A program made the translations under genes and the position numbers. A stretch of DNA of 48,387 nt, from contig JALWNT010000050.1 in the NCBI GenBank assembly GCA_027080995.1, forward strand, positions 1 through 48,387, read 5' to 3'. The notes beneath the pieces are model-generated. The model was not told the DNA's origin and ran no database searches. It saw only the letters and a list, made by a program, of their open reading frames with translations. Source of the stretch: Campylobacteraceae bacterium (GTDB taxonomy: Bacteria > Campylobacterota > Campylobacteria > Campylobacterales > Sulfurovaceae). Shown one piece after another: positions 6,792 through 26,016 of this stretch (position 1 is the stretch's first letter; every line of letters starts with the position of its first letter).

Positions 6792-6863
6792 GTGTCAAAA
6801 GGAATGTCCTCTCTCATTTCCCACAAAATCACAAATGAAATTTCTGAATAACTTGTTCAGAAA

Positions 6864-6950
6864 GGTTTCATTCGATGGCGACAAAGGAGCACTCAACCCC
6901 GAAGGGGCGCCCTTGGGCGTTTGTGACTGCCAGAGCTATCGAGTGAAACC
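6864..6950 (+). ncRNA. Repeated structured RNA candidate, copy 2
   Basis: An 87-nt element with closing arms GGTTTCATTCGATGGC and GCTATCGAGTGAAACC. Both deviations from perfect pairing become G-U pairs on the plus strand and A-C mismatches on the other. The strips are ACAAAGGAG and GACTGCCAGAG. The inner helix is CAC/GTG where copies 1 and 3 have CGC/GCG, a compensatory change. Two inner hairpins follow: CCCC/GGGG and CGCCC/GGGCG. The upstream sequence TCTGAATAA is shared with copy 3. The element ends 39 nt before der. Confidence 0.65.
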
Positions 6951-19662: not shown

Positions 19663-21186
19663 ATGCCAAAAGGTGTCATCGCCGCCGGAGATCGGCTGAC
19701 CGCCCGGGCCGGAGCCCGGATCCTCGAAGAGGGGGGCAACGCTTTCGACGCCGCCTGCGCCGCGATGCTGGCGGCCCCTCTGGCCGAACCGATGCTGACC
19801 AGCCTGGGGGGAGGAGGCTTCCTGATGGCCCACTCCCCCGGCGAGAGCGCGGTCCTCTACGACTTTTTCGTCGACGTCCCTCCCCAACGCTGCGAAAGAC
19901 CCGACTTTTACCCCATCGACGTCGATTTCGGCACGACGGTGCAGCAGTTTCAGATCGGTGCCGCCTCCACCGCGGTCCCCGGGATGCCTGCGGGGATCGA
20001 CCGTATCCACCGCGAGCGGGGGCGCCTGCCGATGGAGCGGATCGTCGCTCCGGCCGTCGAATACGCCCGCGAGGGGATCCACCTCAGCGAACTTCAGGCC
20101 AGCTTCGTCTGTCTGCTCGAGCCGATCCTGCGCTCTACCGAGGCTTCCCGAGCGCTCTTCGTCCCCGAGGGGTGCCTCCTCGACGCCAAGCGCCCGGTGC
20201 GCAATCCCGACTACGCCGACTTTCTCGAAGCGTTCGCCCGGGAGGGAGCCGACCTCTTCTACCAAGGAGAGATCGCCCAGCGCCTGGATCGGCTCTACCG
20301 GGAAGCCGGCGGGTCGCTGCGCCGGGAGGATCTGGAACGTTACAAAGTGCACACACGCGAACCGATCGGCTTCGACTACCGGGGCTACCGCGTCGCCACC
20401 AATCCCCCACCCTCCGCCGGAGGGATCCTCATCGCCTTCACGCTCGAACTTTTGCGCCGCAGCGAAGCGCGAAGCTCCGAGACCCTCGAATATGTCCGGG
20501 ACCTCATCGAAGCGATGGCGGTGACGGGAGAGTTTCGCAAGGAGCAGGTCGACGCCCGTCTGCACGATCCTAAGCTGGCGAAGGTCGTCACCGATCACGC
20601 TCTTTTGCTGCACTACTTCGAGCGCTTCGACCGGCGCATCGATCTCTGGGGCAACACCACCCACATCTCGGTCATCGACGCGGAGGGCAACGCCGCCTCC
20701 GTCACCTCCACCAACGGAGAGGGCAGCGGCATCGTCGCTCCGGGTACGGGGATAATGATGAACAATATGCTCGGAGAAGAGGACCTCAACCCCCACGGAT
20801 TTTTCCAATGGCCCGCGGGGGTGCGCCTCCCCTCGATGATGGCGCCGACGATGGCTTTCGATCCGGAGGGATCCCCCGTCCTGATCCTCGGCAGCGCCGG
20901 CTCCAACCGGATCCGCAGCGCCATCGTCGAAGTGGCCGAGCGCTATCTGCGCTTCGGCGAGCCGATCCGTAACGCCGTCGACGCTCCCCGAATCCACTAC
21001 GAAAAGGGAGAGCTCTTCTTCGAACCGGGCTACAGCCCCGAAATCCTCGAAGCCGCCCGCCGGCTCTACCCTGTCACCGAATTCGACAGCCCCAGCCTCT
21101 TTTTTGGCGGGGTCAACGCCGTCACCGGCGACTACAGCGGAGCCGCCGACGGCCGCCGGGGCGGAGCGGTCGAAGTCGTCTCCTGA
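19663..21186 (+). CDS. Gamma-glutamyltransferase family protein without signal peptide
   Basis: N-terminal-nucleophile hydrolase that cleaves or transfers gamma-glutamyl groups. The 507 residues include the alpha-part text GGNAFDAACAAMLAAPLAEP and TSLGGGGFLMAH. The self-cleavage site is WGNTTHISVID with Thr332 as expected nucleophile, followed by STNGEGSGI, NNMLGEED and LPSMMAPTM. There is no secretion signal, unlike E. coli and Helicobacter GGT, so it probably acts in the cytoplasm. It follows the GCS2 ligase by 214 nt on the same strand. An acylase or CapD-like specificity is an alternative. Confidence 0.85.
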   Translation: MPKGVIAAGDRLTARAGARILEEGGNAFDAACAAMLAAPLAEPMLTSLGGGGFLMAHSPGESAVLYDFFVDVPPQRCERPDFYPIDVDFGTTVQQFQIGAASTAVPGMPAGIDRIHRERGRLPMERIVAPAVEYAREGIHLSELQASFVCLLEPILRSTEASRALFVPEGCLLDAKRPVRNPDYADFLEAFAREGADLFYQGEIAQRLDRLYREAGGSLRREDLERYKVHTREPIGFDYRGYRVATNPPPSAGGILIAFTLELLRRSEARSSETLEYVRDLIEAMAVTGEFRKEQVDARLHDPKLAKVVTDHALLLHYFERFDRRIDLWGNTTHISVIDAEGNAASVTSTNGEGSGIVAPGTGIMMNNMLGEEDLNPHGFFQWPAGVRLPSMMAPTMAFDPEGSPVLILGSAGSNRIRSAIVEVAERYLRFGEPIRNAVDAPRIHYEKGELFFEPGYSPEILEAARRLYPVTEFDSPSLFFGGVNAVTGDYSGAADGRRGGAVEVVS

Positions 21187-21231
21187 CTCCGTATCGGCCT
21201 CCGCTTCGACGCTTACCTTTTTGGGATACAA

Positions 21232-21502
21232 TATTACCGCACCCAGTAAATACCTCAAACTTTGAGAGGACGAGACGCAGTAAGATGTGCGTGAAAAAAG
21301 CTGAAGGACTACCCGTAGGTAATTTGAAGGTTTTTTGCGCGCAGATTGCTGCGTATCGTCCTCCCTGAAGGGTGCTCCGCTTTCGCCCATATGCTGCGTT
21401 GGATTTCTTTGAATTCGCTTTGGCGAGTCCTGCAAAAATCCGCCTTGCCTATGAACGAAATCGAAGCATCAAAGATTAAGGTATTTACTGAGTGCGGTAA
21501 TA
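21232..21502. mobile_element. MITE-like element with 33-bp terminal inverted repeats
   Basis: The ends 21232-21264 and 21470-21502 are inverted repeats matching at 30 of 33 positions (outer words TATTACCGCAC and GTGCGGTAATA). Inside, AGGACGAGACGCAG pairs with CTGCGTATCGTCCT, and TGCG...GAAAAAAGC pairs with a GGTTTTTTGCGCGCA arm, so the left half folds into nested hairpins. There is no transposase. It ends about 20 nt before the ribosome binding site of ccoI. No second copy lies in this window, apart from a 12-nt match to its end at 25860. Confidence 0.75.
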
Positions 21503-21531
21503 AACGCAAAAAAATCCGAAGGAGCGCCTCT

Positions 21532-23955
21532 TTGGCCCGAGTCCCCTGTACCCACTGCCATTTGGAATTTGACGAATCGGTGATGATCACCGAAGAGGAG
21601 AACGGCAAACCCCTCTACTTCTGTTGCAAAGGGTGTCAGGGGGTCTACCATCTGCTCAAAGAGGAGGGGCTTGAGACCTTCTACGACAAACTGGGCAACC
21701 AGACCCTCGAACCCGCCGACAAAGCCCGGGCCAAAAAGGAGGATCTGGAGCGCTTCGACCTGGAGGGCTTCCACAAAAAGTATGTCCGCACCACCCCCGA
21801 AGGGTTCAACGAGATCCACCTCATCATCGAAGGGATCCACTGCTCGGCCTGCGTCTGGCTCAACGAAAAGGTCCTCCACCAGACCCCCGGCGTCATCGAA
21901 GCCACCATCAACTACTCCAACAACAAAGCCAAAGTCGTCTGGGATCCGGAGCAGATCCGCCTCTCACAGATCATCGAAACCATCCGCAACATCGGCTACA
22001 ACGCCTACCCCTACGATCCGGCATTGCAGGAGGAGCGGGCGGTCAAAGTCCGCAACGACTACTACTCCCGGATCCTCGTGGGCGTCTTCGCTACGATGAA
22101 CATTATGTGGATCGCCATCGCTCAGTACGCCGGTTACTTCACCGGGATGGAAACCGGGCACAAAAAAATCCTCAACATCGCCGAATTTCTCCTGGCGACT
22201 CCGACGCTTTTTTATAGCGGCTGGATCTTCTTCCGCGGCGCGTGGTACGGGCTCAAAAACCGTTTTATCAATATGGATGTCCTCGTCGCCGCCGGCGCGA
22301 CGCTGGCCTATCTCTACTCCATCTACGCGATGGTCACCCTCAAAGGAGAAGTCTACTTCGATTCGGTGACGATGATCATCACTTTTGTCCTGGTGGGTAA
22401 ATATCTCGAAGTCCTCAGCAAACGCCAGGCAGTCGATACGCTGGACAAGATCATCGGCTCGATGCCCACCGAAGCCACCGTCGTGCGCGACGGCGAAAAA
22501 GCCCTCGTCTCCATCGAAAACGTCGAGCCCGGCGACCTCATCGAGCTCAAGCCCGGGGAGAAAGTCGCCCTCGACGGGATCCTGCGCCAGGGCAGCGCCC
22601 TTTTTGACGAAAGCCCCCTCACCGGAGAGAGCGAACCGATCCTCAAAGAGGAAGGCGACGAAATCCTCAGCGGCACCGTCTGCCTCGATTCGGTGGTGCG
22701 CTACGAAGCGACCAAACGCGCCGACGAATCCCTCCTGCACCAGATCACGGAACTCCTCAGCGACGCCGTGACCAAAAAGCCCCGCATCGAGCAGCTGGCC
22801 AACGTCGTCTCGGGCTACTTCTCCGTCATCATCCTCTCCATCGCCCTGCTGACCTTCGCCGGATGGCTCTGGTACAGCGGCTCGTTCGAGCGGGCGCTCA
22901 TCGTCGCCATCAGCGTCATCGTCATCGCCTGCCCCTGCGCCCTGGGGCTGGCCACACCGATGGCGACCCTGGTGGGGATCTCGCGCGCCGCCAAACGGGG
23001 GATCCTCTTCAAAGAGGCGGCTCAGCTGGAGACCGCGGCCCAAAGCGACCTGCTGGCCGTGGACAAGACCGGCACCGTCACCGAGGGGCGCCCCAGCGTC
23101 GTCAACTTCCAAAGCGAAGAGGGATTCGACCCCGCGCTGCTGCTGGCCCTCGTCTCCGGCAGCAACCACCCCGTCAGCCAAGGCGTCGCCCGCTGGCTGC
23201 GCGAGCGCTACCCCGACCTGCGCCCTCCGGAACTGGAACACTTCAAAGAGATCCAAGCCCAAGGCGTCAGCGCCGAATACCGGGGACACAAACTGGCGGG
23301 GGGCAACGTCGCACTGATGGATGCCCTGGCGATCCCCGTCAAAGTCGAAAGCAACGAGACGCTTTTTCTTTTCGCGATCGACGGGAAGATCGTCGCCCTC
23401 ATCGAACTGCGTGACCGCCTCAAGGAGGGAGCTTACGAGGCCCTCGCCGCCATTAAAGCGCTGGGGGTCAAGGTGGTGATGCTCACGGGCGACCACGAAG
23501 CGGCGGCACGGCGGATCGCCCTGGAGGCGGGGATCGACGAAACCTACGCCCGTCTGCTCCCCCAGGACAAAGCCGAAATGATCGATCGTTTTCACAAAGA
23601 GGGGCACATCGTCGTGATGGCCGGCGACGGGATCAACGACGCCCTCGCCCTGGCCCGCAGCGACATCGCCGTAGCGATGGGCAGCGGCGCCGACATCGCC
23701 ATCGAAGTGAGCGACATCGTCCTCCTCGAAGACCGCCCCCAGCATCTCGCCGACGCCTTCCTCATCGGCCGCCGCACCTTTCGCAGCGTCAAGCAAAACC
23801 TCGGCTTCTCGGTCCTCTACAACTCCATCGCCGTTCCTCTGGCGGTGCTGGGCTACGTCAACCCCCTCGTCGCCGCCCTCTCGATGAGTCTTAGCTCCCT
23901 CTTCGTCGTGGGCAACTCGATGCGAATCAAGTTGGGTATGAAGAATGAAGAATGA
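21532..23955 (+). CDS. ccoI: Copper-transporting P-type ATPase CcoI (FixI-like)
   Basis: P1B-type ATPase that supplies copper for cbb3 cytochrome oxidase assembly. I place the start at TTG 21532, with AAGGAG 7 nt upstream, giving 807 residues. N-terminal cysteines C6/C9 and FCCKGC (31-35) are typical of CcoI-type proteins, followed by a heavy-metal domain with CSAC at 104-107. Then come eight membrane helices with the CPC motif (IACPCALGLATP), the TGES actuator loop, DKTGTVTEG phosphorylation site and GDGINDALALA. An in-frame extension reaches 21346 inside the MITE-like element and is unlikely to be native. ccoS follows. Confidence 0.93.
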   Translation: MARVPCTHCHLEFDESVMITEEENGKPLYFCCKGCQGVYHLLKEEGLETFYDKLGNQTLEPADKARAKKEDLERFDLEGFHKKYVRTTPEGFNEIHLIIEGIHCSACVWLNEKVLHQTPGVIEATINYSNNKAKVVWDPEQIRLSQIIETIRNIGYNAYPYDPALQEERAVKVRNDYYSRILVGVFATMNIMWIAIAQYAGYFTGMETGHKKILNIAEFLLATPTLFYSGWIFFRGAWYGLKNRFINMDVLVAAGATLAYLYSIYAMVTLKGEVYFDSVTMIITFVLVGKYLEVLSKRQAVDTLDKIIGSMPTEATVVRDGEKALVSIENVEPGDLIELKPGEKVALDGILRQGSALFDESPLTGESEPILKEEGDEILSGTVCLDSVVRYEATKRADESLLHQITELLSDAVTKKPRIEQLANVVSGYFSVIILSIALLTFAGWLWYSGSFERALIVAISVIVIACPCALGLATPMATLVGISRAAKRGILFKEAAQLETAAQSDLLAVDKTGTVTEGRPSVVNFQSEEGFDPALLLALVSGSNHPVSQGVARWLRERYPDLRPPELEHFKEIQAQGVSAEYRGHKLAGGNVALMDALAIPVKVESNETLFLFAIDGKIVALIELRDRLKEGAYEALAAIKALGVKVVMLTGDHEAAARRIALEAGIDETYARLLPQDKAEMIDRFHKEGHIVVMAGDGINDALALARSDIAVAMGSGADIAIEVSDIVLLEDRPQHLADAFLIGRRTFRSVKQNLGFSVLYNSIAVPLAVLGYVNPLVAALSMSLSSLFVVGNSMRIKLGMKNEE

Positions 23956-24410: not shown

Positions 24411-24647
24411 ATGAAGACCATTACGATGCGTGTCGATGATTCCATCTATGAAATGATCAAAAAAGCCGCGCACGGCCAACGACGCAATCTCTCCAACTTC
24501 ATTGAATATGCCACCTTGCAATATCTGACCTCTTCCCAATATGTAGGCGATGAAGAGATGCGGGAGATTTTAAACGATAAGGACTTGGTCGAAAGCCTCA
24601 AAAAAGGGAAGCTGGAAGCCGAGGCCGGAGAGTATACGCTTGTATGA
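24411..24647 (+). CDS. Ribbon-helix-helix antitoxin
   Basis: DNA-binding antitoxin of a type II pair. The 78 residues open MKTITMRVDDSIYEMIKKAA, a beta strand then helix as in CopG/RelB-like proteins, with NLSNFIEYA as the second helix. The acidic C-terminal part (residues about 48-78) would wrap the toxin. Its stop overlaps the toxin start by 8 nt. The stretch 24330-24910 is more AT-rich than its surroundings, suggesting acquisition by transfer. Confidence 0.85.
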   Translation: MKTITMRVDDSIYEMIKKAAHGQRRNLSNFIEYATLQYLTSSQYVGDEEMREILNDKDLVESLKKGKLEAEAGEYTLV

Positions 24648-24909
24648 TTTCCAAATCGCCGAAACGAAAAGTTTTCAAAAATCCAGGAAAAAATATGGCG
24701 AAAAACTCTACAAACGTATCAAAGATATCGTCTATCCCCAACTAAGAGAGAATCCCTATTTCGGTCCGAACATCAAAAGGCTCAAGGGAGAGTTCGAAGG
24801 ATTCTATCGCTATCGAATCGGAAACTATCGTCTCTTCTACCTCATCGAAGAGGATAAAGTCATCGTCGTCGTCACCGATCTGCGCTCGAGACAAAACGCG
24901 TACGGATAA
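24640..24909 (+). CDS. RelE/ParE-superfamily toxin
   Basis: Likely ribosome-dependent mRNA endonuclease or gyrase poison; RelE type is favoured. The 89 residues end with the family pattern IKRLKGEFEGFYRYRIGNYRLFYLIEEDKVIVVVTDLRSRQ (described here as KRLKGE, YRYRIGNYRLFY and VTDLRSR blocks). The in-frame start is TTG at 24640, inside the antitoxin gene; an ATG 4 nt on is out of frame. A weak start plus overlap would keep toxin below antitoxin. Confidence 0.85.
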   Translation: MYDFQIAETKSFQKSRKKYGEKLYKRIKDIVYPQLRENPYFGPNIKRLKGEFEGFYRYRIGNYRLFYLIEEDKVIVVVTDLRSRQNAYG

Positions 24910-25835: not shown

Positions 25836-25931
25836 CGCACTCCCTTGCCCGTGTCTCGTTATTACCGCACCTACTATCTAGCTCACATATTGATGTGATA
25901 ATATTGAACCATCTGAATAATGTTCGAGAGA

Positions 25932-26016
25932 GGTTTCACTTGATGACGACAAAGGAGCGCTCAACCCGTGAAACGGGCGCTTGCGTTCGCGACTGCCAGA
26001 GTCATCGAGTGAAACC
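25932..26016 (+). ncRNA. Repeated structured RNA candidate, copy 3
   Basis: An 85-nt element with arms GGTTTCACTTGATGAC and GTCATCGAGTGAAACC; the single deviation is a U-G pair on the plus strand. It keeps the strips ACAAAGGAG and GACTGCCAGAG, the inner CGC/GCG helix, a CCCG/CGGG hairpin and a CGC-TT-GCG hairpin. TCTGAATAATG lies about 20 nt before it, as at copy 2, and could be a -10 box. GGTTGTTTTT follows directly and could end transcription. The element lies 63 nt before the exonuclease gene. Confidence 0.65.

Follow-up and report, generated by a model that had tools for sequence, protein, structure and literature searches.

The 271-bp segment upstream of ccoI in the window, the 48,387-nucleotide stretch of DNA that we analyzed, is probably a non-autonomous, TA-inserting palindromic element of the MITE/ERIC-like kind, whose fold is kept and which was inserted behind the ccoI −10 box, where it would form a hairpin leader. 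It belongs to a repeat family that duplicates TA upon insertion and shares a conserved fold, and its core occurs with two kinds of ends. At ccoI, a promoter-like block lies beside the junction, and the protein has no N-terminal extension.

Structure of the Element

The whole element occupies positions 21232–21502 of the + strand and reads TATTACC...GGTAATA, with a TA target copy at each end. Its inverted repeat arms (21232–21265 and 21469–21502) are 34 nt long, 91% complementary and separated by 203 nt; the match of 30 of 33 bp between the ends and the outer coordinates 21232 and 21502 reported in an initial annotation of this DNA are therefore correct. The folding energy of the element strand is −123.2 kcal/mol, compared to a shuffle mean of −71.9 (sd 4.67), which corresponds to a z-score of −11.0, and none of the 200 shuffles folded equally well.

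The nested internal hairpins noticed earlier resolve into a terminal stem enclosing two arms with a small hairpin between them, an arrangement conserved in an alignment of 46 full copies. The left strand of the terminal stem P1, which is the terminal inverted repeat, spans 21232–21257 (inverted-repeat search and alignment), and its right strand spans 21477–21502 (inverted-repeat search and RNAalifold); they correspond to alignment columns 2–26 and 286–310. Within the stem, RNAalifold places arm A (21266–21363, columns 35–141) with the tip GAAGGACTACCCGTAGGTAATTTGA, the middle hairpin CCTGAAGGG (21364–21372, columns 142–152) and arm B (21376–21465, columns 156–273), all on the + strand. Arm B is the most widely shared part, and its covariance model R1, described below, matches positions 21393–21453.

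The absence of coding content in 21232–21502, also proposed initially, was borne out. No Rfam family reached the gathering score in the window, nothing convincing was found at E ≤ 10 within 21150–21600, and tRNAs alone reached the gathering score in 20 scanned loci; a known RNA family was rejected on this basis.

Copies, Distribution and Insertion

The window's own genome, G000, is represented by a fragmented assembly of 1.97 Mb in 127 contigs. A BLAST search of this assembly with the 271-base query (E ≤ 1) returned 36 matches, many of which were one end matching the other. The search for full copies suggested in the initial annotation yielded four further complete ones, on contigs C81, C118 (two) and C46. 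One incomplete copy at the edge of C84 lacks 22 left bases, those on C57 and C59 are cut by contig edges, and shorter pieces are also present. These homologous copies make the window element more than a chance palindrome.

At E ≤ 0.001, matches were found in 19 of 60 genomes (18 of 59 relatives): the window's own, six of the 12 other genus members, 11 in the family and a single genome from another family, the last with a 41-base match only. A degenerate core pattern detected at least 113 stretches in the species genome collection, and all 80 titles among the matches listed were Campylobacterota-type records. The window element had no blastn match in plasmids or phages. The core pattern was also present in two IMG/VR contigs, L365 and L366 (316,664 and 49,120 bases). 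Searches of an open-access library, with PMC2229807 and PMC3733652 among the texts consulted, gave no description of the element.

To characterize insertion, the flanks of six copies were joined minus the element and sought in the genus. Four empty sites carry a single TA where the filled site reads TA...TA (L029/L353, L028/L354, L030/L360 and L047/L359), and we conclude that insertion duplicates TA; the other two were imperfect (L046/L351, with TGGA, and L093/L352, with one A fewer). The signal for longer target duplications in the TATTACC-type family was not convincing. The original designation “MITE-like” is upheld by a non-coding repeat family with TA duplication at the four empty sites and internal deletion forms; the features generic to MITEs, namely short length, lack of coding content, terminal inverted repeats, multiple copies and target duplication, are all present. 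The outcome named at the outset as contrary to this designation, a segment conserved in relatives as a coding sequence or leader without element behavior, does not apply, since element behavior was demonstrated.

The copies and empty sites also bear on the origin of the segment. A cis-regulatory ccoI leader evolved in place, such as a copper- or oxygen-responsive RNA, would fit the promoter-proximal position, the strong fold and the slow divergence between G000 and the genus member G005. However, homologous copies occur at many loci of the genus, ccoI of other genus members lacks the segment, and other copies have empty sites. We regard such an origin as highly improbable and refuted by the copies elsewhere and their empty sites; later co-option of the ccoI copy as a leader may have occurred.

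Nearly all copies with enough flank (89 of 90, with a crude ORF caller) are intergenic. Together with the terminal inverted repeats, the TA duplication and the internal deletion forms, this placement would suit a plain MITE remnant, i.e., a TA-inserting DDE transposon reduced by deletion, with a fold that simply follows from its inverted repeats and no effect on ccoI. We consider this explanation possible but rather unlikely, for reasons given in the following sections. The right-hand neighbor gene was co-oriented with the element in 55 of 89 cases (p = 0.03), a weak bias obtained with the same crude ORF caller, which misplaced the window's own neighbor genes. Since the orientation of the element to genes is nearly random family-wide, a general sense-leader role is unsupported and was rejected for the family as a whole.

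Half-elements were observed as well, combining a fixed short end with differing inner breakpoints. Among right-half copies with an assembled left flank, seven of nine (L139, L009, L011, L112, L199, L158 and L173) preserve nothing beyond the outermost (T)ATTACC before the sequence resumes in arm B, at about model position 170–177; the short end varies to ATCACC in L139 and to ATTAC in L173. A mirror form, L010, is a left-half copy terminating in GGTAATG. A solitary, partnerless TATTACCGCACC end lies at 25860–25871 of the window; the genome contains several such solo ends.

Conservation of the Fold

RNAalifold analysis of the 46-copy alignment (A1) yielded 91 pairs, of which 62 have at least one two-sided change, giving the single-strand fold the compensatory support expected of an ERIC-like element. 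Paired cells amounted to 96.2%, compared to 83.9% in shuffles, a control that kinship alone can outdo on some measures, and 36–42% in slid versions, a control that favors the observed structure because it was derived from the same sequences; the more reliable indicator is how many pairs show two-sided changes. Subject to the same reservation about kinship, all 500 shuffles scored below the real alignment on each of five measures.

The outer ~12 nt of P1 are conserved in sequence, and its inner positions vary freely, yet pairwise, so that complementarity is retained. Conserved mismatches include an AGAT facing AGAT in arm A, which forms a tandem G.A, and a C facing A in both arms. The tip of one arm resembles the reverse complement of the other, more closely than in any of 50 shuffles for 32 of 46 copies but not for the remaining 14. 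Conservation is therefore not confined to the ends, as the arms covary and both tips and mismatches are conserved, which argues against a plain MITE remnant.

In 89 of 102 copies, folding is stronger for the top strand than for the bottom strand. A first mismatch count in the arm A stem gave 219 G.U versus 13 A.C, a ratio biased because the structure had been predicted on the same strand. With symmetric loop positions added, the G.U:A.C counts became 281:65 for arm A, 86:134 for arm B and 35:34 for the terminal stem; strand-specific selection was rejected once the one-sidedness of the first count had dissolved in this way. The strand preference of the element is only moderate.

A Wider Group with Other Ends

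An arm B profile identified more distant relatives, some with ends unrelated to TATTACC. The covariance model R1, built from 16 arm-B sequences, including some other-ended members, matched 42 of 298 Campylobacterota genomes (E ≤ 1e-4), with a maximum of 18 places per genome. From ten R1-positive genomes, 40 loci were fetched. Their ends were mostly GGGCACCTCTAA.../...TTAGAGGTGCCC, with five of the TATTACC type. Both GGGCACC-type ends could be located by pattern in 26 of the 40 loci, which collapse to 25 sites. Identical 4-bp flanks were found at 14 of these sites, compared to 2.2 expected (0 of 300 shuffles), indicating that the GGGCACC type duplicates 4 bp. Two stretches around GGGCACC-type copies had no blastn match in plasmids.

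The 29 non-TATTACC-ended elements, approximately 265–276 bp long, share the architecture of a stem with two arms and a middle hairpin. In 24 of 29 GGGCACC-type copies, the + strand is the one that folds better. Two copies, L279 (TCTA) and L282 (TTAA), lack arm A and have intact duplications. Additional core types have long, nearly perfect ends, such as AAGTACCTGACC, AAACCTGAG, CTAGTACCG and others (L142, L153, L164, L170, L172, L205, L214, L229, L234 and L235); by eye, most of them are TA-flanked. Near one core copy, a CRISPR-like array was observed (L214:5239–6185), whose repeats match CRISPR-DR8 below the gathering score.

The occurrence of one core with a second, unrelated end type and 4-bp duplications also speaks against a plain remnant. 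It brings up a further reading, in which the two-armed core is itself the unit of selection, a selfish RNA or ssDNA module that has carried at least two unrelated end sets and whose ccoI copy is a retained leader. We think this unlikely. If true, the core would have captured or evolved both the TATTACC (TA) and the GGGCACC (4-bp) ends across Campylobacterota, its arms would outlast end turnover, it would spread in genomes that have no recognizable transposase, and the module might have a function of its own, such as binding a host protein or a hidden mobilizing enzyme.

Search for a Mobilizing Enzyme

According to the preferred reading, that of a non-autonomous TA-inserting element, an enzyme encoded elsewhere would act on the element ends in trans. 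The same-ended transposase that the initial annotation suggested looking for was found neither in G000 nor in the complete genome G260. In G000, none of 23 end matches formed a transposon-length pair, and gaps in the assembly could hide one. In G260, the 51 matches to GGGCACC ends comprised 23 inverted pairs of ~265 bp, one 129-bp pair and three single ends, while the 23 matches to TATTACC ends comprised ten pairs of ~272 bp, one 58-bp pair and one single end; no pair of either type encloses a gene. A complete genome with ten TATTACC- and 23 GGGCACC-type full-length pairs but no parent transposon is a further point against the plain remnant. No element copy carrying a transposase was found.

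G000 had no match to four Pfam transposase families (Y1_Tnp, DDE_3, DDE_Tnp_1 and rve). DDE_3 (PF13358, IS630-type) was found in none of 13 genus genomes, DDE_Tnp_1 in two and rve in five. All three are absent from G000 and from the carriers G001, G002, G005 and G006, and each was rejected as the mover on these grounds. The element carriers G008 and G011 have rve matches, and a partner may be among their rve transposases. An autonomous partner is not strictly required for MITE status.

REP/REPIN elements are thought to be handled as folded strands by RAYT transposases. By analogy, the present element could be mobilized in a folded single-stranded form or through an RNA, by a structure-reading enzyme rather than a double-strand DDE transposase. 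The conservation of structure beyond the ends, the free yet complementary inner part of P1, the inverted look-alike arm tips and the better folding of the + strand in both end types are consistent with such a route. Y1_Tnp (PF01797) is present in 75 of 298 genomes of the phylum and commoner with the core (21 of 42 genomes versus 54 of 256 without it). Nevertheless, PF01797 was not found in G000 or in 21 of the 42 core-bearing genomes, including G170, from which 12 copies were fetched; Y1/RAYT mobilization was rejected because the window's genome has no match, despite the association with the core. Short target duplications of fixed length also typify DDE enzymes, and the strand preference is moderate, with near parity in the terminal stem. 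Movement as a folded strand thus appears quite doubtful.

Comparison with Known Repeats

Small palindromic repeats are usually regarded as transposon debris. Here, the interior is kept by compensatory change beyond what a debris model would lead one to expect, in several Campylobacterota families and with two kinds of ends; with no mobilizing enzyme evident, what keeps the fold becomes a testable question.

ERIC elements have a TA target and show compensatory changes. Like ERIC/IRU of enterobacteria, the present element is an imperfect intergenic palindrome with no linked transposase. Compared by description, ERIC is 127 bp long, whereas the element has 271 bp with a terminal stem, two arms and a middle hairpin; unlike in ERIC, its core is also found between other ends, with a 4-bp duplication. 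REP/REPIN sequences are inverted stem-loop pairs dispersed in genomes. Unlike the REP/REPIN-RAYT system, the element has terminal repeats and target duplications, and G000 is without a Y1/RAYT match.

RUP and NEMIS/Correia repeats are, like the element, short and intergenic with terminal repeats. According to PMC2229807, RUP inserts at TA and NEMIS RNA is a proposed RNase III substrate. RUP has a matching IS630 element, whereas none of the 13 genus genomes has DDE_3 and no parent was found for the present element. The same source describes the CIR repeats of Caulobacter as two hairpin arms with a linker. The element shares the two arms; compared by description, CIR ends are unpaired and CIR mobility is unsettled in that text (PMC2229807), whereas the ends of the element pair.

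The ccoI Locus

The predicted ccoI −10 box, TACAAT, was assigned at 21227–21232 (+ strand) by eye through comparison with relatives, and the element begins with the final T of this box. The upstream block CTTACCTTTTTGGGATACAAT in the window was likened by eye to TTTACCCTTTTTGGCTAAAAT in G001, G006 and G011, with a similar sequence in G012; in these four genomes the block lies roughly 27–47 bases 5′ of the ccoI start. G001, G006 and G011 have the promoter-like block and no element at ccoI. The block of the window and G005, CTTACCTTTTTGGGATACAA, continues into the element, and TACAAT is completed by the element's first T. G003, G007, G008, G009 and G010 have other upstream sequences, and no collinear empty ccoI site was seen among relatives, whose upstream sequence differs. 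A strict sigma-70 promoter and terminator scan gave no site.

The element had been proposed to supply or block the ccoI promoter. Given that the promoter-like block of the relatives adjoins it upstream and that the −10 box is intact over the junction, it most likely does neither. In the proposed scenario, insertion would have occurred at a TA directly behind the −10 box of a pre-existing promoter, and TACAAT would be kept because the element begins with TA; with the box kept at the junction, transcription is predicted to start a few bases inside the element. Judged from the sequence, the element is most likely a hairpin leader of ~265 nt on the ccoI mRNA, followed by an unchanged ribosome binding site and start codon.

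The ribosome binding site AAGGAG (21519–21524, + strand) lies outside the element, and the predicted fold near it is identical with the element present and at the joined empty site. On the basis of the ORF list and homology, ccoI, encoding a copper-transporting P-type ATPase, extends from the TTG start at 21532 to 23955 (+ strand). The frame is indeed open into the element, as first noted (ORF 21346–23955), but homology to ccoI in ten genus relatives starts only at MARVPCTHC/MAKVECSHC, i.e., at TTG 21532, outside the element, and the N-terminal extension considered possible at first was rejected.

An effect on ccoI, if any, would concern mRNA processing or stability via the long double-stranded leader, with promoter and protein unaffected. 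PMC2229807 states that ERIC RNA can change the stability of co-transcribed mRNA in an orientation-dependent manner; with the processed or stability-altering mRNA hairpins of ERIC and NEMIS described there, this kind of effect appears the most likely one. The local prediction is that the mRNA for the copper pump serving the cbb3 oxidase carries a long hairpin leader.

Divergence of the ccoI Copy

G005 carries the same ccoI insertion (L064/L114). Its element and that of the window are separated by 13 substitutions plus one indel over 271 positions, while 88 of 404 fourfold sites of ccoI differ (Fisher p = 2e-10 against 13/271). Of the 14 differences, read from the window to G005, two make up a single compensatory pair at columns 170/259, T-A to C-G; five, including the indel, create a pair, two replace one standard pair by another, two fall at unpaired positions and three disrupt a pair. 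Among 30 candidate pairs listed, four orthologous copy pairs had both 200-bp flanks at least 87% identical, and in all four, a small sample, element similarity equaled or exceeded the flank mean.

The slower change of the element compared to ccoI fourfold sites suggests that the ccoI copy is under constraint; this copy may in addition have come to serve as a retained leader. This slowness is the last point against the plain remnant. Alternatively, slow divergence could result from homogenization or local recombination.

Downstream of ccoI, the window contains a pair of small ORFs at 24411–24909, which by eye resemble a RelB/RelE-type toxin-antitoxin pair. Another dispersed repeat of ~70 bp is located at 25903–25973 and 6843–6897 of the window; it has dozens of matches in the genus and also flanks the element copy L029.
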